Shown here piece after piece: positions 2,852 through 60,013 of a DNA stretch of 61,596 nucleotides; the first letter of the stretch is position 1, and each line of letters opens with the position of its first letter. Origin of the DNA: a virus; IMG/VR virus record IMGVR_UViG_3300005366_000004, positions 1 to 61,596 of that record; one strand, 5' to 3'. Both the position numbers and the translations under genes were made by a program. The notes under the pieces are model-generated. The model was not told the DNA's origin. It saw only the letters and a program-made list of their open reading frames with translations, and did no database searches.

Positions 2852-2921
2852 GGCGTAGGTTTTGAGTGATATAAAATAGATGCCGGGATTTTAGCGTAGG
2901 TTCATACATAAAACCTACGCC
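2852..2921. repeat. Three GGCGTAGGTT-type repeats upstream of int (possible attP arm sites)
   Basis: GGCGTAGGTTTT at 2852-2863, GCGTAGGTT at 2894-2902, and the exact inverse AAAACCTACGCC at 2910-2921. The last two form an inverted pair with a short spacer. They begin 11 bases upstream of the integrase start codon. Repeats beside int are typical of integrase arm-type sites or an autoregulatory operator. Which of these applies cannot be told from sequence. Confidence 0.55.
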
Positions 2922-3073
2922 ATTTTGCGAAGTGTAGTGGGTGTGTTGTGATAGGCAGTGATGACAACCCACCACGCCAGCGGCAGGAATAAGAATTGAA
3001 AAATCAAGCACTTAACGAAATTTCCAAGGAAACACGCGGTTTTAGCGAGGCCGAAATTTCTAAGCATACTCCT

Positions 3074-3112
3074 ATGATGCATTAGAGGCTCCCCCCTCTG
3101 TAAACGCATCAT
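3074..3112. other. Two-part hairpin between int and the cargo operon
   Basis: ATGATGC (3074-3080) pairs with GCATCAT (3106-3112), and inside it AGAGG (3084-3088) pairs with CCTCT (3095-3099). No T-run follows, so it is not an obvious terminator. The rest of the ~360-bp gene-free stretch 2842-3205 holds the two repeat sets listed separately. Confidence 0.5.
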
Positions 3113-3122
3113 CAATGTTTAG

Positions 3123-3162
3123 AAGTTACGCCAAAAGTTACGCCGGATTTCTGGCGTAACTT
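3123..3162. repeat. AAGTTACGCC x3 repeat/palindrome, probable operator
   Basis: AAGTTACGCC occurs at 3123-3132 and 3135-3144, and its exact inverse GGCGTAACTT at 3153-3162. The last two form a perfect 10-bp palindrome with an 8-bp spacer. The set ends 43 bases before the first gene of the rightward cargo operon (3206), so it may be an operator for that operon or an arm site of the attachment region. Confidence 0.6.
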
Positions 3163-3205
3163 CCTCGCCTCCGCACGATTCCATCGAGCAACCAAGGAGG
3201 ATCAA

Positions 3206-6361: not shown

Positions 6362-9282
6362 AGATGCGGGCCATGGTCGAGCACTCCGCAGCCGGTCATT
6401 GTGTAGCCGCTGATTGCCGTGGTCGAGCAAGTGATGTCGGTGGACATCAAGTTGCCATAGAACCACAGGTCGAACGTCAGGCCCGTCCCCGTCGGCGTGA
6501 TCCGCCAGAAAACCATATCCTTCCGCCATTCCACCTCTGAGCGCGTGTGGTTGAGCATAAAGACCGGGAAGGTATGCGATTGATCGGCACCGTCATTCCA
6601 TCGCAATTGAAACGCGCCGTTTGGGTCAGTGTCGGTCGTATCGCTGGCTGTGTACCAGAGTTCGAGCGACGATAACCCGCCGCTGACTGTGAAGCCCATG
6701 ACCTGCTGATCAACCTGCGACCGACTCGTCCAGTACGGAGAAAACACGCCAGCGACAGGATCGCCAGCGCTGCCGGTGGTGATCGACATCGGGCACGTGC
6801 GCACCACTGCCGCCTGAGATGTGCCTCTGATCAGGTCGAATGCTGCCGCTGCTTTGCTGTCCGTGATTTTCAACACTTGAAAACCGTCGTGGAACTTCAA
6901 CGTTTTACCCGGCGTCCAGACGCGGAAGTAAGCCCGCAACGCTGCCGTCGCGCCCTCGCCTGCCCGAATATAGACGGGCAGCGTCATGGGCGTGGCGTGC
7001 CTCGGCGGGACTCGCCGGAGCGGGTCGATATAACGCCGCGTGCCTCCGGTCTGGCCAAGGATCGCCACTGGCGTGCATTGGACCATCCGATTTTGATCTG
7101 GCGATGTATCAGTCCCCACCCTGGCAACAATGACGTATCGATCACCGTCCGCCGTATCGAATGCCTGCGTCGATCTGATGTACCCGTGCGACGTGGCGGC
7201 GCTGCGAAGGCCAATCGTCGTGCTCCCATCCTGCAGCTCCCACACCTCCGCAGTCCGACCGGCGAGATTCGCGCCAGTCATAAAGGTCATGACCTGATCG
7301 GCGCTCCGATAGCGAGCGATACCGTCTGCATATGCTGGGCTTGTGATCGTGATCAGGGTGCCGTCGTCGTCATAGTCTCCATCGAGGTCGTATGAGTATG
7401 ACGATACTGTTTCGCTCGCCGCATCGAAGATATAAATATCAGACTTCCAATCGGTATCAACGGCGGGCGATGTGGCATTGGTGCCGAATGCAAGATATAC
7501 GCTGGCCGTGCTGTCCGAGGCCGTCGCCGCAATGACCTGCCGGTTGCGCGCCGCTGGCAAGGTCGCAGCGATCACGCTTCGTGCCGCTGTGCTGAGGTTT
7601 AGCTTCTCAATCGATGATTTCACCGACGCCCCGCCGTCGCCGCCGAACACGTAGATATAACCATCCGACCTCAACCAGCTTCTGTGCCGCTGCGTCAGGC
7701 CGGACAGTTGCGCAAACAGCGTCGCCACGCCGGTGGCTGGATTTACCTTGTAAATGTCCTTCGAGACTGCCGACGAGGTTCGACCGCCGATCACGTACAG
7801 ATAGCCACCGTAATAATGCATGGTGTGGCGCTGCAGGGCGATGGGCGATCCGCTGACGGTCACGGATGCCACCTCTACCCAGGCATCCGCTCCGGCCCAT
7901 GTCTTCACATAGAGCTTGTCACTGTACGCGCTCGCCGCCGTGAAACCGCCATAGAACCATACTGACGTGCCATCCGTCGCCACCGCTCCCGATTGGATCG
8001 CCACCGGCAGCGCTGGCGCAGATGTGATTGTTCCATCGACGTTATCGCGGTAACAGGTCGCGGTCGCTCCAGCACCGTCAGCGCCGCCAGCTACAAATCC
8101 GACATCGCCATAGGTGCAATATGCCGCCTTTTCTAGCGCCTTCGGGAATGCGTCGTTGGTTGTTCGGCTCAAGCGGAACCTTCGCCTGGAGTTCCTGCCG
8201 CTGAGATTCGCCCTTGTGTAGTTGAAGAAGCTCGGCCTGTTTTCGGCATCGTTCCACGCAGAGAAATCACTGTTGGAATTGATAACGGATAGCGCGGGCG
8301 TGACAGCCACGCCCATTAGATTTCGCGCCGTCGTGGCGTCTACAGCAGCGGCCATAATCCCGGTGAACAAATCTAAGCCAACAGTCGCGGACACGCCCTG
8401 ATTTTCCGTTTCGGGCACCTCAACGACCAGACTGAAAGCGTCCGGTCTGGAGTGTTGGCGGAACCATGTATTAAGGTACGGTTTCCGATAGCTCCTGTAC
8501 TCCGTCAAAAACGGCGTGTCGTTCACAATCGTGAAGCCGGACCAATCGCGCTGCGATACCAATTGCTGGCAGTAGTTGTACCCGAGCCGGTGCGTGCGCT
8601 CCGCTTCCGGTGCGTGATAAATTTCTTCGACAAGGAACCCCCAAGTGGTCCTACTCCACCAAGCGTGGGTATCCAATGTGCAGATGATCCGCCGGGCGAA
8701 CGTGAGGCCCCATGCCTGTATGCCCGCTGTCTCCGGCTGATCCGAGGGGGCCGCGCCTTTATCTGTGTCCGGTGCCTCGGCCCAAAACCACGGCCAGTTA
8801 CGATTCAGGTTGACACTGTTGGCATTCTGCCGCGTGTCGGCAACCATCCCATCGGGATTGACACCAAGGATCACAACAAGCGCTATATGCTGACGTGCCA
8901 AGGCCAGGATATTGTTGCTGTCGCTTGTGGCGAACTCCTTGGCCGCCGTCATGACGCCCTTGGCAAGATTGAGTTCGTTGCCGTGGATGCCGAGCGAAAT
9001 CAAGACGACAGGCCGCACGCCATCATCGTTGATCCGCATGGCCTTGATCTGCCGCCCACTCGGCAGCGTCGTCACGGTCTCGATCACAACATCAAGATCG
9101 GCGCTTGCGGCAATGTCCGCAGCCGCTGTCTGCAATGTTGCGTAATTGTGCTCAACAGTGGCATCGTCAAAGGGCGACGCGATGTTCTCCAGCTCTTGAA
9201 ATGCAAAATTGGAGGCGAGCAGCGTGCGTCTTGTCGGCGAGTTCGCAGTCGCACTAGATGCAGCATGTGCGGCGACTGTCAT
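6358..9282 (-). CDS. Zinc carboxypeptidase (M14-like) fused to Kelch beta-propeller; last late gene
   Basis: 974 residues. Residues ~60-300 carry the M14 metallocarboxypeptidase signature: H100xxE103 in GIHGNE (zinc ligands), VNPDG and NLNRNW (substrate-carboxylate Asn/Arg, R161), H206 in LDTHAWW (third zinc ligand) and E288 in VVEVPETE (candidate catalytic Glu). Residues ~390-640 hold Kelch-like blades with GG and YGG/VFGG turns (GGRTSSAVSKDIYKVNP, VFGGDGGASVKSSIEKLN). A beta-rich C-terminal region of ~300 residues follows. It overlaps the 116-aa gene upstream by 4 bases and closes the late operon after the lysis genes. M14 enzymes trim C-terminal residues from peptides; in a virion this could act on peptidoglycan stem peptides or surface protein. 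It may be a tailspike or fibre. The role is inferred; the motifs are visible. Confidence 0.85.
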   Translation of the reverse strand: MTVAAHAASSATANSPTRRTLLASNFAFQELENIASPFDDATVEHNYATLQTAAADIAASADLDVVIETVTTLPSGRQIKAMRINDDGVRPVVLISLGIHGNELNLAKGVMTAAKEFATSDSNNILALARQHIALVVILGVNPDGMVADTRQNANSVNLNRNWPWFWAEAPDTDKGAAPSDQPETAGIQAWGLTFARRIICTLDTHAWWSRTTWGFLVEEIYHAPEAERTHRLGYNYCQQLVSQRDWSGFTIVNDTPFLTEYRSYRKPYLNTWFRQHSRPDAFSLVVEVPETENQGVSATVGLDLFTGIMAAAVDATTARNLMGVAVTPALSVINSNSDFSAWNDAENRPSFFNYTRANLSGRNSRRRFRLSRTTNDAFPKALEKAAYCTYGDVGFVAGGADGAGATATCYRDNVDGTITSAPALPVAIQSGAVATDGTSVWFYGGFTAASAYSDKLYVKTWAGADAWVEVASVTVSGSPIALQRHTMHYYGGYLYVIGGRTSSAVSKDIYKVNPATGVATLFAQLSGLTQRHRSWLRSDGYIYVFGGDGGASVKSSIEKLNLSTAARSVIAATLPAARNRQVIAATASDSTASVYLAFGTNATSPAVDTDWKSDIYIFDAASETVSSYSYDLDGDYDDDGTLITITSPAYADGIARYRSADQVMTFMTGANLAGRTAEVWELQDGSTTIGLRSAATSHGYIRSTQAFDTADGDRYVIVARVGTDTSPDQNRMVQCTPVAILGQTGGTRRYIDPLRRVPPRHATPMTLPVYIRAGEGATAALRAYFRVWTPGKTLKFHDGFQVLKITDSKAAAAFDLIRGTSQAAVVRTCPMSITTGSAGDPVAGVFSPYWTSRSQVDQQVMGFTVSGGLSSLELWYTASDTTDTDPNGAFQLRWNDGADQSHTFPVFMLNHTRSEVEWRKDMVFWRITPTGTGLTFDLWFYGNLMSTDITCSTTAISGYTMTGCGVLDHGPHL

Positions 9283-40309: not shown

Positions 40310-43300
40310 TTAATAAGTATCCGCGAAGTAATATTTCGGGTCGTCTGAGTAGTCAATTCCAGTAGCACGCGATGCCAGATCATCGATGAGCGCTTGATTG
40401 ACCGTCGCGCCTGCTGCTTTGGCTAGCTTCAAAGCGCCATGAATATTTGATAGGTAACCGCTTGCAGACAGAATGCCTCCAATGCAGTTTGTCGAAGGCG
40501 GATTTGCGACCACGGTGAAGGTGGCTCCGGGTGCCGCAGTATTTGTCGGTGCAATCGGCGTTCCGCCAGGCGTAGCGGCTAGTTGGAAAGTGGTGCCAGA
40601 TTTATTGACGACGTAGTACGGGGTGCAAGCAGAGAATCCGCCGGGAGCGGTAGTCTCAATGTTTTCCCACATCATCACATCACCGTTTTGTACAGAGAAT
40701 CCTTGGAGCTGAGTCCCAATCGTGAATAATCCAGTCCCTGAATCCCACGACGCAGCAGGCTGAAGCGTGTGATATGCAGTCTGCGAAGGCGACGTAATCA
40801 GGTTTGCCGCGCCAGTGCTTCCGACACGAACGACTGAGCGATATGCAGTGATGTGCCATGCACCATGATTGGTGCGCACCCAGTCGTACCACTTCGACAG
40901 ATGGCTAGCCACAGCAGTGGCTGAAGAGCTTTCCGTCATCTTTGCGACATGCGACGCAGCCTGCAAATAGTATCCATTCATCCATGGCGACAAATTGCAA
41001 ATATCCGTGAAATGCAGCAGGCCGGATGTCTTCCAGAACGTTGTTGCTAGGTTGTTCGTGAAGTCCATCACTGCCGCATAATTCGCCGTTGAAAGATCGT
41101 TGAAGTATGTCTTGTACGCTGCACATTGAGGCGGCGAATCTGGCAGTAGAGCTGCAGTCCAGCCAATATCACGAGCCGCCCATGCGCCAGCACGTAGCTG
41201 TACGTTGAACGTAACAACGCCGTTATAGCTGGTGCCGTTGATCGATATATTCCGCTCCGCGCCGCAGTTTTGGGCTGTTGCAGTCGTGACCCCTGTATAC
41301 CCACCAGAAACCGCAACGTTAGCCATCTCCAGCATCAAATCCAGATATTGCGGCTCGCCGGTCATCATGTACGGATAAGACGCGAACGCAGGCATATGGT
41401 CAAACGTCAGCGATTGCAAGGCGCTAAACGTCATTGACCCAGTTGGATTCGTAAACCCGGACGTATGCGACGTGTTGCCATCCCAGCGGAAGCTATTGCT
41501 AGACGCAGGCATGCCGCTGTAAGTGCCGCTGTTGCACGGTTTGACTGTCTTGGTGCTCGAATTGAGCACGTGAATCGCTGCATGCCCAAGAGCCAGCCCG
41601 ACAACACGCGACACCTGCTGATCGGTGGCGCGCTGGGACAGTAGAGTCTTGACGTGCCACGTCGGCATCACGCCGATGTCCGACCGTTCGCCAGTTCCGC
41701 CGTTGGCGCGCTGTACCGGACCCATCGTGCCCAGTGAATAGCTATAGCTCTGTTGAGTCGTCGGGGTTGTTGTTGCGTATGTCGGCACGAGGCCGGTTGA
41801 CATCCAATACTGAGCGTTATGCACGACTCTGACTGTCGCATCAGCAGAAACGCTGCCGCCTGCCTGCACGTAGTCCCACATTGCCGACGTGCCGCAAGTC
41901 CACAGCGAGCCGAAATGTGTGAGATACGGATACGCCGTCAATGTCATTCCTGACGCGGAGCCGGACAGAGAAATTGGAGCAGTCCCGCCGAGGAAGTTGG
42001 AGGCAGCTTGAAGCTTTAAGGTATCTGTTCCGAAGCTTTGCGTGAAATACGAGGTGCCGGAGACCAACGGCGATGGTAACGTTGTGCCAGATGCGCGGAC
42101 AAGCGTCTGATCCTCAAATCCATGCGCGGTAACAGTTAAGCTATCGCCGCTTGTGTAGCTTGCACTCCTCGGAGTCGTATTCGTCCAGCAGTCCCGCACC
42201 GTGGACGCGCCATTCTTCAGCAGGAAACTTGAGAACGAACGCCCGCATTTCGCAGGGCTATCCACGTCATACCAGGGCTGCGTTACGCGCCCGAGGTAGC
42301 GCAAACCGTAAAGATTGCCGCTTGCATCCTGAAGCGCCGAGACGTACCAGTAGCATTCCAATTGGCCGTGGTTCGATCCCGACTGCATGAATTGCTGACG
42401 AATACGCCACACCTTGCCGACTGGCCCATCTCCAAACGTCAGGATGTCATCGTTATCCGTAACGCCTTGGTTAAGGCTGGATGTCCACGTACCGGACAGG
42501 TTATCCAAGCCTGTGACGACCACTTGCAAGTCTGTCGAACCCGAGGACAAGTCCGCAAGTGAGCGCGACGAACTGCCCGGTGCCGTGATGGTTGACTTGA
42601 CGTTGACCGTAATGGAGCCGCTACCAGCAACAGTCGTCGGCACGCGAATCAGGAAAGACGCAAACTTCAGCGAGCCGTCAGACCAATACGTCTGGCCGAA
42701 CATCGTGTAGGGGATATTCGTCCCGCCTACAGTCTCAAATTTCGGATAATGCCCGGTTGCGATGTCGCCCTTTTTGAAAGGGTGGCCAAACATCGGCGGG
42801 ATAAAATCTGCGGCAACCGTTGACCCGGATGTGTTCGAGACAGTAAATGTCGTCAGAACGCTACTGTCAGAGTCCGGCAAGTTAGCTGGTGCGTCAATGT
42901 GGAAGCTAGAGGTAAGACCGAGACCTGAGACACCATCCAAATTGGCCGACAGCACGTAATCACGCGCCGCGCCTGTGAGGCCAAGTGTCCCCTGCACCCA
43001 TTCGCCGCCTGCGCTGGTAATGCGAATAACTGCCGCGCCTGTATTGAGATCCGCCGCGCTGTTCGTGGTTACGCTTGATACAGTGCCCAAGCTGGTCGTG
43101 CTGCCGTTGGCATAGGTGATGGAGCCGGTCAGGCTCGCCTGGAAGCGAGTTGTCCCCGTACTCCATACGGTTGCTGCGCTGGCGTTAGATGCAGCAGACG
43201 GATTGTGCTTGATGGTGATCGTCTTATTCGATCCAAGGACGGTGGCAAGCGTCTCAAGCCATCCGCCCTTCGTAACCGCATCACCTAAAGCATCTTCCAA

Positions 43301-43321
43301 TGCCGCGCTGTAACCAACCAT
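40310..43321 (-). CDS. Large tail-fibre/tailspike with RIFT-barrel lyase-like middle and helical toroid-like domain
   Basis: 1003 residues from ATG 43321; AAAGG lies 8 bases upstream. Residues ~175-230 read FGHPFKKGDIATGHYPKF and then FGQTYWSDGSLKFASFLI, like the N-terminal RIFT barrel of PcRGLX/YetA-type polysaccharide lyases. Residues ~640-860 (YLDLMLEMANVAVSGGYTG, RAGAWAARDIGWTAALLPDS, FTDICNLSPWMNGYYLQAASHVAKM) look like an alpha/alpha toroid found in lyases. The N-terminal ~160 residues would bind the virion. Proposed depolymerase for capsule or exopolysaccharide; this is inferred from fold-like patterns, without a confirmed active site. Confidence 0.65.
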   Translation of the reverse strand: MVGYSAALEDALGDAVTKGGWLETLATVLGSNKTITIKHNPSAASNASAATVWSTGTTRFQASLTGSITYANGSTTSLGTVSSVTTNSAADLNTGAAVIRITSAGGEWVQGTLGLTGAARDYVLSANLDGVSGLGLTSSFHIDAPANLPDSDSSVLTTFTVSNTSGSTVAADFIPPMFGHPFKKGDIATGHYPKFETVGGTNIPYTMFGQTYWSDGSLKFASFLIRVPTTVAGSGSITVNVKSTITAPGSSSRSLADLSSGSTDLQVVVTGLDNLSGTWTSSLNQGVTDNDDILTFGDGPVGKVWRIRQQFMQSGSNHGQLECYWYVSALQDASGNLYGLRYLGRVTQPWYDVDSPAKCGRSFSSFLLKNGASTVRDCWTNTTPRSASYTSGDSLTVTAHGFEDQTLVRASGTTLPSPLVSGTSYFTQSFGTDTLKLQAASNFLGGTAPISLSGSASGMTLTAYPYLTHFGSLWTCGTSAMWDYVQAGGSVSADATVRVVHNAQYWMSTGLVPTYATTTPTTQQSYSYSLGTMGPVQRANGGTGERSDIGVMPTWHVKTLLSQRATDQQVSRVVGLALGHAAIHVLNSSTKTVKPCNSGTYSGMPASSNSFRWDGNTSHTSGFTNPTGSMTFSALQSLTFDHMPAFASYPYMMTGEPQYLDLMLEMANVAVSGGYTGVTTATAQNCGAERNISINGTSYNGVVTFNVQLRAGAWAARDIGWTAALLPDSPPQCAAYKTYFNDLSTANYAAVMDFTNNLATTFWKTSGLLHFTDICNLSPWMNGYYLQAASHVAKMTESSSATAVASHLSKWYDWVRTNHGAWHITAYRSVVRVGSTGAANLITSPSQTAYHTLQPAASWDSGTGLFTIGTQLQGFSVQNGDVMMWENIETTAPGGFSACTPYYVVNKSGTTFQLAATPGGTPIAPTNTAAPGATFTVVANPPSTNCIGGILSASGYLSNIHGALKLAKAAGATVNQALIDDLASRATGIDYSDDPKYYFADTY

Positions 43322-43335
43322 CAGCAGCCTTTCAA

Positions 43336-43371
43336 ATAAAAAAGGCCCGCTCACATTTCTGCGGCGGGCCG
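43336..43371 (-). terminator. Intrinsic terminator directly upstream of the 1003-aa fibre gene
   Basis: Minus strand GGCCCGC ... GCGGGCC (7-bp arms, 13-base loop) followed by TTTTTTATTTG and AAAGG, the ribosome site of the fibre gene. Confidence 0.75.
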
Positions 43372-43402
43372 AAGTACCCAAGGGAGGTTGGGGTGAAGGA
43401 AA

Positions 43403-43594
43403 TTAGGTATTACCGACTCTCAGGCTATCCAGCAGCCGATCCACGCTTTCTCGCGCTCTGATCGGCTTCATCGCCTCTTCTTCGAGGACGTATTGCGCAA
43501 ATCCGCGCAGCGTGGCGACTATCGTGTTTCTGTCGGGTCGCGTAGCTACCAAGCTGTCAGCCAGTGCTTCGATGCTCTCTGCTACGCGATCCAT
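43403..43594 (-). CDS. 63-aa helical hypothetical protein
   Basis: DRVAESIEALADSLVATRPDRNTIVATLRGFAQYVLEEEAMKPIRARESVDRLLDSLR: helical. ATG 43594 directly follows the stop of the N4 gp49-like gene. An upstream in-frame ATG (43648) inside that gene is possible but has no ribosome site. Function unknown. Confidence 0.6.
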   Translation of the reverse strand: MDRVAESIEALADSLVATRPDRNTIVATLRGFAQYVLEEEAMKPIRARESVDRLLDSLRVGNT

Positions 43595-43599
43595 TTGCC

Positions 43600-43956
43600 T
43601 TATTGTGCTGCCAGCTTCGAGCGCAGCTCGTAACCCATCAGCGGCCAAATCTTCTGCACGGCGTTCTGGCGGGCGATCTTGCGGCCAATCTCGGCGTCGA
43701 AGTTCTCAGGCGACGCGCAGGCGCTTTCGCCAGTTACGGTGAAGCCGTTTTTCAGGACTAGGACGCAGAAGGTCAGAAGGTCAAGCGCCTTATCTGCTGC
43801 TTGCACTTCGGGGCCACCCCGGTAGTAGCCGCAGACACCGTCGAATGCTGTGAAGTAATACTCGCTTGCGATATTCGCTTCGATGTCGTCCGGCGTGATG
43901 CGCGGCGCGGTCAGGCCCTTGGCTTGGATTTCCTGCTCAATTGCTTGATCATTCAT
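43600..43956 (-). CDS. N4 gp49/Sf6 gp66 family protein
   Basis: 118 residues. ITPDDIEANIASEYYFTAFDG and LTFCVLVLKNGFTVTGESACASPENFDAEIGRKIARQNAVQKIWPLMGYELR match the family closely. Its biochemical role is not established. Common in podovirus genomes. Confidence 0.85.
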   Translation of the reverse strand: MNDQAIEQEIQAKGLTAPRITPDDIEANIASEYYFTAFDGVCGYYRGGPEVQAADKALDLLTFCVLVLKNGFTVTGESACASPENFDAEIGRKIARQNAVQKIWPLMGYELRSKLAAQ

Positions 43957-57013: not shown

Positions 57014-57358
57014 ATGGGCACACAACTATTCGCAAGACCGGCAGCACAACGTCAATGGCATGCAGAAGCAATGCGACAAGACGCAATCGACAGCGAGGCA
57101 AAAGAGGCAGCACGCCACATCAAGTCAACGCTGTCACTCAACGCACGCAACCTGTCTGCAGTAAGCGAGGCAATGCTGGATCAGATCGGGCAAGAGGAAA
57201 TGCAGATGATTCTCGAATGCTTGGAGCGCGGGAACGATGGATTGCTTGGGCTGGTGACGATCTTGAGCGCGGTGAAGGAAGCGGCGATTTACGAAGTGGC
57301 GGAATACCACGCAATCAAGGTTGTTGAGGAACATGGCACGGCTGTTTTGAACTACTGA
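57014..57358 (+). CDS. 114-aa hypothetical early protein
   Basis: QRQWHAEAMRQDAIDSEAKEAARHIKSTLSLNARNLSAVSEAMLDQIGQEEMQMILECLERGNDGLLGLVTILSAVKEAAIYEVAEYHAIKVVEE: helical. Last gene before the large RNA-like segment. Function unknown. Confidence 0.6.
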   Translation: MGTQLFARPAAQRQWHAEAMRQDAIDSEAKEAARHIKSTLSLNARNLSAVSEAMLDQIGQEEMQMILECLERGNDGLLGLVTILSAVKEAAIYEVAEYHAIKVVEEHGTAVLNY

Positions 57359-57360
57359 CT

Positions 57361-57895
57361 CTCCTCCCTGGTGCTGCCATGTGCAGCCGAGTGGTTCACG
57401 AAACGAACCGCAAAGACGCATGCGGATTAAAGATTCGATCAGTCCGCAGCCGCCTTTGAGCTCTCCTTATACGGTGCCAGAAGCGCGAAAGCGTAACCCG
57501 ATTCTGGCTAGCCCTCGCCTCGACAACGAGGGTCAACACAGAAGCGGCATCGAAGCATAGCAAGCGATGCTAGGGCCAAAGTATGCGGAGGATTCGCGAT
57601 TAATCCGCAAAGGATAACCCGACCGCTATCGAGCGGTGAGCCGGATTGCAACCATCTGGCGATGCTGTTTCTGTGTTGGTGGCGGAAGAAGTAGCGGTCA
57701 CATATGGGCTTAGAGCGAAGCCGTGCGCACGGAGCGTATCCCCCCGTATTCATCCCGCAGTCCGCCAGGATCGCAACCTAAAGCCAACACCTAAAGCCCC
57801 TCCGGGTAAGAGAGGGGCGACACGAAAGCGACCTGCTTAGGAGACGTGAGACATCTCCGAAGTACGTGCTGTGCGGGCAGGCCGCTTTCGTGTTG
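57361..57895 (+). ncRNA. Candidate large structured RNA in the PL operon
   Basis: About 535 bases with no supported ORF on either strand but with a chain of near-contiguous perfect helices: 57373-57387 (5 bp), 57391-57411 (7 bp, one G-U), 57421-57448 (8 bp), 57476-57508 (7 bp enclosing a CGC-GAAA-GCG tetraloop hairpin), 57512-57532 (6 bp). A 19-bp long-range helix 57534-57552/57660-57678 with only two G-U pairs closes a multiloop with hairpins at 57584-57609, 57622-57637 (ACCGCT-ATCG-AGCGGT) and 57641-57659. A second long-range helix 57680-57686/57761-57767 holds 57707-57722 and 57721-57732. Then 57796-57818 (7 bp) and an 11-bp helix 57820-57830/57883-57893 enclosing 57832-57836/57877-57881 and 57840-57858. 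No T-run follows, so it lies in the early transcript. It could be a GOLLD-, ROOL- or other large-RNA relative, or a new class; the family is not identified. Confidence 0.7.
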
Positions 57896-57907
57896 AGGGA
57901 GGATGAC

Positions 57908-58066
57908 ATGACACAACAGCAGCCGGAAGAAACAGAAAGCAAACGTCCAGTATGCGAGGAATGCGACAAAGAGATGTATCCATTTGCCGCAGATGTGAAT
58001 GGGCGAATGGTTGAGGGGTGGGGCTGTGATTACTGCGGATGGTCGTTTGATGACGAGGGGGAGTGA
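57908..58066 (+). CDS. 52-aa zinc-ribbon-like protein
   Basis: From ATG 57908 with GAGGGAGG upstream, directly after the RNA segment. RPVCEECDKEMYPFAADVNGRMVEGWGCDYCGWSFDD: two CxxC pairs, a small zinc ribbon. Ends acidic. Unknown function. Confidence 0.65.
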   Translation: MTQQQPEETESKRPVCEECDKEMYPFAADVNGRMVEGWGCDYCGWSFDDEGE

Positions 58067-58580: not shown

Positions 58581-58629
58581 CAGTATCAATAACCTAATGC
58601 GGGCAGAGTCTCCGCGAGAAAGGCAAGAA

Positions 58630-59397
58630 ATGAACGAAATAATCACACAATCGCGGGCAAGCTTCTCTCTCGCGCCTCAGGATCTTGACCAAGCACTCAG
58701 GTTCGCCGAAATGCTCTCCAAGTCAAGCATCGTCCCGAAGGACTTCCAGAACAATCCCGGCAATATCCTCGTTGCGGTTCAGTGGGGGATGGAACTCGGC
58801 CTTCAGCCAATGCAAGCAATGCAGAACATCGCCGTAATCAATGGCCGCCCTTCCCTTTGGGGCGATGCAGTTATCGGACTTGTTCGTTCTTCGTCGGTTT
58901 GCGAATACGTCATCGAAGAAAACCTTGAAGACAAGGCGATTTGCCGCGTAAAGCGTCGCGGCGAGGACGAGCAAGTTCGCATTTTCACCAAGGAGGATGC
59001 TCAGAAGGCCGGGCTTATTGGCAAGCAAGGTCCATGGACTCAGTACCCGAAACGAATGATGCAAATGAGGGCGCGATCATGGGCGTTACGCGATGTGTTC
59101 CCAGACGTGTTGCGCGGCATGCCGATTGCAGAAGAAGTCATGGACATTGAATCGCGGGACATAACTCCAATGCCGCAACGCCTGACAGGGGCGCAGGCAG
59201 CAGAGGCAGCGCGGCTATCCGCCCCGATTGACTCCGAAGAGCGAAGGCAACTGATCATCGAGCTTGAAAAAGTCATCCGCGAAAGCGGCCAAGGTGCCTA
59301 CGCAGAACGGTGGAAGGGATTGACGGCAGCTCAGCGCAAGATGGTCGGCAAGGAAGAGCACGAACGAATCTGGTCAATGGGAGATGCAAATGAGTGA
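58630..59397 (+). CDS. recT: RecT-family single-strand annealing protein
   Basis: 255 residues from ATG 58630 (AAAGG upstream). LSKSSIVPKDFQNNPGNILVAVQWGMELGLQPMQAMQNIAVINGRPSLWGDAVIGLVRSS is the RecT core, followed by WTQYPKRMMQMRARSWALRDVFPDVLRGMPIAEEV. Anneals homologous single strands, with the exonuclease next door, as a phage recombination pair. Confidence 0.92.
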   Translation: MNEIITQSRASFSLAPQDLDQALRFAEMLSKSSIVPKDFQNNPGNILVAVQWGMELGLQPMQAMQNIAVINGRPSLWGDAVIGLVRSSSVCEYVIEENLEDKAICRVKRRGEDEQVRIFTKEDAQKAGLIGKQGPWTQYPKRMMQMRARSWALRDVFPDVLRGMPIAEEVMDIESRDITPMPQRLTGAQAAEAARLSAPIDSEERRQLIIELEKVIRESGQGAYAERWKGLTAAQRKMVGKEEHERIWSMGDANE

Positions 59398-60013
59398 GCT
59401 TCAGCGAACTGAGGATTGGCATCTGGCCCGCGCAGGGAAGTTCACCGGCTCAAAGTTCTGCGACGTAATGGCCCGCAGCAAGAAGAATGGCGAGCCGCTG
59501 AAGGCGTACAACGATCTTGTTTGGCAGCTTGTCGTCGAGCGCATGACAGGACAGCCAGTGGAAGGGCCAGTCGGTCATGCTCTCAAGTGGGGAACAGAGG
59601 TTGAGCCGTACGCCCGCGAGGCATACGAGCTGGAAACCGGAAACATTGTGAGCGAAGCGGGCTTTGTGACTCACCCGAAGTTCGGATTTGCTGGAGCATC
59701 GCCTGACGGCTTGATTGGTGACGACGGCGGCTTGGAAATGAAATGCCCGAAGGATTCCCGTATTCACCTGGAGCGCTTTTCAGAAGGCATCCCAGAGGAA
59801 TACGTTCCTCAAGTGCAGGGCAACCTGTGGGTGACGAGTCGGAGGTGGTGGGACTTCGTTTCGTACGATCCGCGCATGCCCGAATCTCACCGGATTTATA
59901 TTCAGCGCATTGAGCGCGACGAAAGGTACATCGCGGAACTGGAGACGGCAATCTTGGCGGCGGAAGCGGTTGTACAGGCAAAACTCGAATACCTACTTAA
60001 AACGGCGGCTTAA
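59390..60013 (+). CDS. YqaJ-type (lambda Exo-like) exonuclease
   Basis: 207 residues from ATG 59390, overlapping recT. RTEDWHLARAGKFTGSKFCDVM at the N-terminus and GASPDGLIGDDGGLEMKCPKDSRIHLERF give Asp, Glu and Lys of the PD-(D/E)xK exonuclease site. 5'-3' resection that feeds RecT. Confidence 0.92.
   Translation: MSELQRTEDWHLARAGKFTGSKFCDVMARSKKNGEPLKAYNDLVWQLVVERMTGQPVEGPVGHALKWGTEVEPYAREAYELETGNIVSEAGFVTHPKFGFAGASPDGLIGDDGGLEMKCPKDSRIHLERFSEGIPEEYVPQVQGNLWVTSRRWWDFVSYDPRMPESHRIYIQRIERDERYIAELETAILAAEAVVQAKLEYLLKTAA

Follow-up and report, generated by a model that had tools for sequence, protein, structure and literature searches.

Genomic context of the element

The window, i.e. the whole stretch of DNA that was analysed, comprises the 61,596 bases of a virus record. 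It represents a temperate tailed phage, with genes for an integrase, a terminase, a portal protein, a repressor and a KilA-N protein. Its early + strand operon contains genes for RecT, a YqaJ exonuclease, a NinB-like protein and an HNH protein. The preliminary description had placed a large structured RNA in an early operon, which agrees with the presence of RecT, YqaJ exonuclease and NinB downstream, an early recombination operon. The HNH protein encoded near the RNA matches phage HNH endonuclease families (PHROGs). Between a 114-aa ORF of no known family and the ATG at position 57908 lies a gap of 549 bases without a convincing gene (Table 1). ORFs inside the element reach at most 64 aa in the sense and 81 aa in the antisense direction, and they are absent from distant relatives. 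Neither a promoter-like site, within the element or immediately ahead of it, nor a good terminator was seen in the window. As a promoter or terminator of its own is not evident, the RNA probably belongs to the operon transcript. The copy of the RNA in the window is referred to below as W.

Table 1. Positions of the element, its helices and the neighboring genes in the window
Feature	Position	Strand	Description	Evidence
Upstream ORF	57014–57358	+	114 aa, no known family	95% identical in L082
Whole element	57360–57907	+	structured RNA, from stop codon of upstream ORF to ATG 57908	fold, tiles, covariation
P1, 5′ strand	57362–57369	+	UCCUCCCU, pairs with 57896–57903	sequence
P2	57373–57387	+	hairpin GCUGC-CAUGU-GCAGC	3/5 pairs changed on both sides, 100% paired
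P3	57393–57409	+	hairpin GGUUC-ACGAAAC-GAACC; loop conserved, stem free	4/5 pairs changed on both sides
P4	57411–57458	+	CAAAG (57411–57415)/CUUUG (57454–57458) around replaceable domain	
P5	57476–57508	+	hairpin GCCAGAA..UUCUGGC, GAAA tetraloop	predicted fold
P6	57511–57533	+	hairpin GCCCUCG/CGAGGGU	predicted fold
P7	57534–57678	+	19-bp helix 57534–57552/57660–57678 enclosing multi-branched domain	sequence and fold
P8	57680–57767	+	UGGCGGA (57680–57686)/UCCGCCA (57761–57767) and inner hairpins	sequence
Linker	57790–57796	+	CCUAAAG, conserved	identical in W, L082, L180, L186, L191
PA	57796–57818	+	hairpin GCCCCUC-CGGGUAAGA-GAGGGGC; 9-nt loop conserved, stem free	3/8 pairs changed on both sides, 100% paired
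PB	57819–57894	+	long helix 57819–57830/57883–57894, exchangeable head 57831–57882	10/13 pairs changed on both sides
P1, 3′ strand	57896–57903	+	AGGGAGGA, Shine-Dalgarno site of ATG 57908 ORF	sequence
Downstream ORF	57908–58066	+	52 aa, zinc-ribbon-like (by eye), ribosome site inside P1	
Recombination cassette	58597–60013	+	RecT annealing protein and YqaJ exonuclease, 3′ of the RNA	

Folding and extent

Folding of positions 57361–57895 gave an energy of −218 kcal/mol (z −4.63), which none of 100 shuffled sequences reached, in line with the earlier claim that the order of this segment is beyond chance. For the full gap (57360–57908), z was −5.76 relative to shuffled sequence. When the window was divided into 110 tiles of 549 nt, the element ranked first (z −5.0; the tile mean is −0.3 with a sd of 1.4). 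With 250-nt tiles it ranked only 7th and 10th of 246, so its order is partly long-range. The individual helices of the preliminary description (the 19-bp, 11-bp and 7-bp helices, the GAAA hairpin and two TGCGGA..TCCGCA hairpins) are all present where it had located them; its statement that almost every base lies in perfect pairs was overstated. The limits it had proposed, 57361–57895, do enclose structured sequence, but the unit is wider (∼57360–57907), because an 8-bp closing helix, P1, joins both ends. The minus strand of the element folds about equally well (z −4.42), so folding alone does not assign a strand, and covariation is needed for this.

Strong structure was also observed elsewhere in the window. 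The second most structured 549-nt tile (43086–43634, z −4.6) lies at the start of the late minus-strand genes. A repeat-rich, strongly structured stretch that adjoins the integrase gene (2860–3180, 250-nt tile z −6.7) contains the repeats GCGTAGGTTTT..AAAACCTACGC and GTTACGCC..GGCGTAAC and probably corresponds to integrase arm sites or attP.

Relatives of the RNA

Besides W, five distinct versions of the RNA were identified, each in a metagenomic contig of a virus. The family comprises six distinct sequences, two of which are near-identical over most of their length. One of these, L082, was found through the protein encoded by the neighboring 114-aa ORF, the only find of this kind; a 461-nt stretch is 98.5% identical to W, the preceding gene is 93% identical and other shared stretches are ∼75–90% identical (75–93% for neighboring genes). 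L180 is a distant copy of 1091 nt in the terminase relative L090 (59.8 kb). L186 and L191 were found with a pattern for the 3′ part, CCTAAAG..CCGGGTAAGA, and L192/L193 (one sequence; L193 is 280 nt long) with a pattern for the 5′ part. In these patterns the loop letters were fixed and the stems left mostly free, so the covariation described below was not created by them. L082, L180 and L186 contain both end modules, L193 only the 5′ module and L191 only the 3′ module; hence no invariant core is common to all members. L191 also lies in a different context, with a promoter-like sequence before the RNA (judged by eye). Relative to shuffled sequences, z values for folding were −5.5 (L082), −4.7 (L180), −3.4 (L191), −2.8 (L186) and −2.5 (L193).

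The genomic position of the RNA is retained in W, L082, L180, L186 and L193. In all five, its 5′ end is located at most ∼10 nt from a stop codon, its 3′ end is the Shine-Dalgarno site of a short ORF, and recombination genes follow within ∼3 kb on the 3′ side, their types differing between RecT and ERF-like or Sak4-like proteins (the latter two assigned by eye). The first ORF after the RNA is different in W, L180 and L186, and a related zinc-ribbon ORF is found directly after the RNA in L082 and L193 and as the second ORF in W. That the place is conserved and the downstream targets are not speaks for the RNA itself having a function. For the upstream ORFs, homology of W with L186 or L193 is no more than suggestive. 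Directly after the RNA of L180 (minus strand) there are two paralogous genes with AAW/AAR(D) repeats in differing copy number. In L191 (1–2800), a dUTPase-like fragment precedes the RNA, which consists of the 3′ module only, and a full dUTPase-like gene follows it, suggesting a local duplication around the RNA.

Models built from the alignments recover the members with E values of 1e-8 to 1e-15, which is expected by construction, and a model search of 80 related phage records returned only the known members and two weak matches at chance level. No DNA similarity to the segment was detected in 50,697 phage records, 72,556 plasmids and 5,426 E. coli genomes, and none to the L180 and L186 copies in the phage records. 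Eighty loci of RecT relatives contained no RNA copy, the short matches there being coding sequence. A neighbor search with a 90-aa ORF yielded no further RNA-bearing phage, and the small zinc-ribbon ORF led to L203, L206 and L207, all without the RNA. An exact 17-mer from the middle domain matched only the L082 contig, a translated-frame scan of genome contigs gave nothing, and the 5′ pattern had eight matches in 84,980 genomes, none with more of the RNA. Searches with model R1 (399 genomes of a single order) and model R2 (369 genomes of a single class) gave only weak matches (E ∼1e-3), which proved on inspection to be coding sequence or terminator-like hairpins. Pattern matches L187, L189 and L190 were rejected since they lie in coding sequence, and the weak R1 matches L213 and L214 were not accepted as members. 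The L213 stretch (1210–1740, from the RecT relative L040; 16.5 bits with R1) is a structured intergenic region of ∼530 nt with a terminator-like hairpin at its end (z −3.8); it is possibly an analogous large RNA without a clear sequence relation. L207 has a GC-rich region with many inverted repeats before its early genes (1900–2150).

Architecture of the RNA

The two ends of the RNA are brought together by P1. The arrangement in which this helix includes the Shine-Dalgarno site is the same in L082, L180, L186 and L193 as in W. When counted by hand over these five members, pairing is intact in 36 of 40 cells, with one double change from G-C to A-U, and it is maintained though the RNA length ranges from 280 to 1091 nt. 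Within the 5′ module, P3 of L082 has the stem CCUCC/GGAGG in place of GGUUC/GAACC, and the loop is identical. P4 encloses a UGCGGA/UCCGCA hairpin in W (57421–57448; the second TGCGGA..TCCGCA hairpin of W is located at 57584–57609). Its counterparts in L082, L180, L186 and L193 are CUAACA../..UGUUGG, and the inner domain is replaced in L082, in which the 45 nt after P3 give way to a ∼150-nt hairpin domain with a 15-bp base.

The middle domains (57459–57786) are known only from W and the near-identical L082, and there is no covariation evidence for them. P5 lacks such evidence because L082 is its sole carrier besides W, and P8 could not be tested for covariation because it is invariant in L082. 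P7, which includes two G-U pairs, has 15 exact bases in common with helix PB of L186, and P6–P7 look, on sequence resemblance, as if they were a second copy of the 3′ module (PA–PB). An alternative pairing of 57673–57679 with 57784–57790 is possible by sequence, and it is also invariant in L082, the only relative with this region; a bistable second state of the RNA is neither supported nor excluded.

The 3′ module includes the linker; its letters belonged to the pattern with which L186 and L191 were found, and its presence in L082 and L180 is independent evidence. The 11-bp helix of the preliminary description (57820–57830/57883–57893) lies within PB, and the heads inside PB differ between members. 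The L180 head (∼7607–7660, minus strand) contains a T-arm, GCGAG-UUCGAUU-CUCGC, with the closing strand directly after it, as in tRNA and tmRNA; the W head has no T-arm. This arm and the tmRNA 3′ end are near-identical, the one pair change between them being compensated; the arm could be a captured tmRNA or tRNA end. The match of the head to the 3′ part of tmRNA (RF00023) is weak (E = 0.007 in 2.3 kb and 1e-5 in 181 nt), and a complete tmRNA- or tRNA-like domain was not accepted, as the likeness is confined to L180, scores 17.9 bits against a cut-off of 47 and comes without a CCA end. Over the ∼3.3 kb of the family, two 5-bp T-loop-like hairpins are only modestly more than chance would give. 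A reading of UAUGG/CCUAAAG as an 11-nt tetraloop receptor was abandoned, since L082 does not retain UAUGG, and a kissing pair CGGGU/ACCCG, possible in W, was not found in L186 and L191.

Between L186 and L180, 41 bases of the 3′ module match exactly and an end piece of 18 bases is also shared, and L180 contains a 37-base repeat that includes most of this end piece. L180 furthermore joins a W-like piece, CACCTAAAGCCCCTCC, to an L082-like piece, ACTTGTTGGTGAAG. Judged from such sequence comparisons, domains between and inside the conserved modules are exchanged between phages.

Covariation and strand

The preliminary description had named the absence of covariation across homologs as an outcome that would refute it, and the helices passed this test. 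In the 5′ module (P2, P3 and P4; five sequences), 93% of cells are paired, compared with 76% in shuffled and 27–55% in slid controls, and 8 of 18 pairs are changed on both sides. The corresponding values for the 3′ module (PA and PB; five sequences) are 98%, 82% and 40–50%, with 13 of 21 pairs changed on both sides and at most three when slid. Over both modules, 21 of 39 base pairs in five helices are changed on both sides with pairing retained, a signal that is lost in the shuffled and slid controls. On the + strand, ∼10 G-U cells were counted against three A-C cells, an excess which indicates that the + strand RNA is what selection keeps.

Comparison with known RNA families

No Rfam 15 family was found at cut-off in the window, L186, L191 and L192, and relaxed limits gave nothing convincing. 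The GOLLD model (RF02032) had no match in the window at E ≤ 10 and none in the RNA of the six members, with a single chance match elsewhere in one record (E 0.3). The ROOL model (RF03087) had none in the six member records (the controls were silent as well), and cmscan of the window at gathering scores and at relaxed limits was also negative. ARAGORN detected no tRNA in the window, L180, L186, L188, L191 and L082. A reverse transcriptase (RVT_1) was absent from the six member records, while positive controls were matched in four genomes. Group I and II introns, retrons and HEARO were rejected as identities, given the lack of an Rfam match and of a reverse transcriptase. The RNA nevertheless fits the loose kind of 'large ornate phage RNA', being long, supported by covariation, non-coding and phage-borne. 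The preliminary description had left open a new class or a distant known one; a large ornate RNA is borne out, and the first option is favored, given the negative Rfam 15 search, the failure of the GOLLD and ROOL models and the lack of a reverse transcriptase. No description of this class was found in the literature searched, most subscription papers being outside its scope. We are highly confident that this is a real RNA class that is absent from Rfam.

GOLLD assembles into an RNA-only 14-mer cage, and ROOL also forms an RNA-only cage. OLE is found mostly in Bacillota, and HEARO accompanies an IsrB-type HNH nuclease. To our knowledge, bacteria and phages have only a few described RNAs of the large ornate type, whose functions remain open. 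GOLLD, ROOL and OLE have been described as RNA-only multimers (PMC12286853). GOLLD sometimes carries tRNAs in its linker and has a conserved 3′ and a variable 5′ region, and its level rises at lysis (PMC12286853).

The new RNA resembles GOLLD as a large ornate RNA of phages and prophages, and the tRNAs that sometimes occur in the GOLLD linker may be compared with the T-arm head of L180. However, many GOLLD RNAs exceed 800 nt, compared with 549 nt here, and no tRNA genes lie near the new RNA. The new RNA also lies in an early operon, whereas GOLLD rises at lysis. As to the GOLLD layout of a conserved 3′ and a variable 5′ region, the new RNA has a conserved 3′ part, a conserved 5′ part and variable sequence between them, the 3′ module being absent from L193 and the 5′ module from L191. 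ROOL is similar in size, phage-borne, highly ordered and without an evident protein partner, but it is often located near tRNA islands, and none is found at the new RNA. Like OLE and HEARO, the RNA is a structured molecule of several hundred nucleotides with protein-coding neighbors, again without an Rfam match, and the IsrB-type HNH nuclease of HEARO was not seen near it. In L180, the likeness to tmRNA and tRNA consists of the T-arm joined to the closing strand; the difference is that the acceptor runs into PB. The likeness to GOLLD, ROOL and OLE is one of kind, not of membership.

Possible functions of the RNA

The family, helices P2–P4, PA and PB, the strand, the position and the complementarity of the 5′ end to the ribosome site are observed, and the function is inferred. 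The best overall explanation, to which we assign a probability of roughly 0.6, is a new class of large modular non-coding RNA in the early recombination operon of certain temperate phages, with a trans role similar to those of GOLLD and ROOL. The RNA would be transcribed within the operon and fold as a closed unit, in which P1 unites the ends and masks the ribosome site of the small ORF that follows; the pairing is observed, its effect on the ORF is inferred. Such closure may shield the RNA from translating ribosomes. The fixed loops ACGAAAC and CGGGUAAGA, together with CCUAAAG, may contact the RNA itself, other copies of it, or a host or phage factor; their position on freely changing stems suggests that they are probably docking sites. 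The exchanged heads and P4 domains would then be variable cargo, in one relative a head with a T-arm. The trans action taken by itself remains tentative, slightly short of even odds in our estimate, since it is inferred without expression data, but it is favored over control in cis and over a role as a counter-defence decoy. A more speculative form, which we regard as distinctly doubtful in the absence of multimer data, is a third class of phage RNA whose copies join via the fixed loops to form a particle of RNA alone; the exchangeable heads and P4 domains would be its cargo, and production would fall early in infection and not near lysis.

The RNA might instead act in cis as an intercistronic control element, with P1 sequestering the Shine-Dalgarno site and folding, or a factor bound at the loops, toggling it in early infection. 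What is expected of a leader or switch, a structure that occludes the ribosome site, is present in five members (there are no translation data): the closure is retained in 36 of 40 cells over very different lengths, the RNA always fills the gap from the stop codon to the ribosome site, and the window shows no evident promoter or terminator belonging to the RNA alone. This conserved closure fits control in cis at least as well as it fits a trans role. A conserved controlled gene, on the other hand, is missing; W, L180 and L186 have different genes after the RNA, which is unlike a dedicated leader, the size and the domain exchange go beyond the needs of a switch, and L191 has the 3′ module without P1. 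Known intercistronic elements that sequester ribosome sites share the pairing of P1 with the Shine-Dalgarno site, but the new RNA is much larger and swaps domains, and its controlled gene is unconserved. Control in cis is thus considered somewhat unlikely, although it is the strongest rival.

A decoy that counters host defence is an improbable reading. Its fixed loops or T-arm-bearing heads would bind or engage a host protein such as a nuclease that cleaves tRNA, and the rapid exchange of heads would reflect an arms race. The replaceable heads and P4 domains, the perfect T-arm and weak tmRNA match of the L180 head and the early-operon position are compatible with this, but the W head lacks a T-arm, T-loop-like hairpins are only modestly above chance and no target is known. 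That the inverted repeats act in DNA, as recombination or replication sites, is very improbable: both strands fold about equally, the element precedes the recombination cassette and its modules are shuffled, but the + strand excess of G-U over A-C (∼10 to 3), the two G-U pairs of the 19-bp helix and the conservation of loops on varying stems all speak for RNA. Readings as a catalytic element that is degraded or mobile, be it a group I or group II intron, a retron non-coding RNA or an OMEGA/HEARO RNA, are hardly credible, for although the RNA is large and structured, with its ends together exactly between genes, it has no Rfam match, no reverse transcriptase in the member records and no interrupted gene, and the nearby HNH protein matches phage HNH endonuclease families.

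The preferred reading, a modular RNA acting in its own right, fits the conservation of the RNA next to unconserved downstream ORFs. The natural exchange of modules distinguishes the fixed parts (the two loops and the linker) from the parts that are free to change. As a covariation-supported class with a defined operon position and versions of ∼280 to 1091 nt, the family offers a smaller and more tractable system for studying the function of ornate RNAs.
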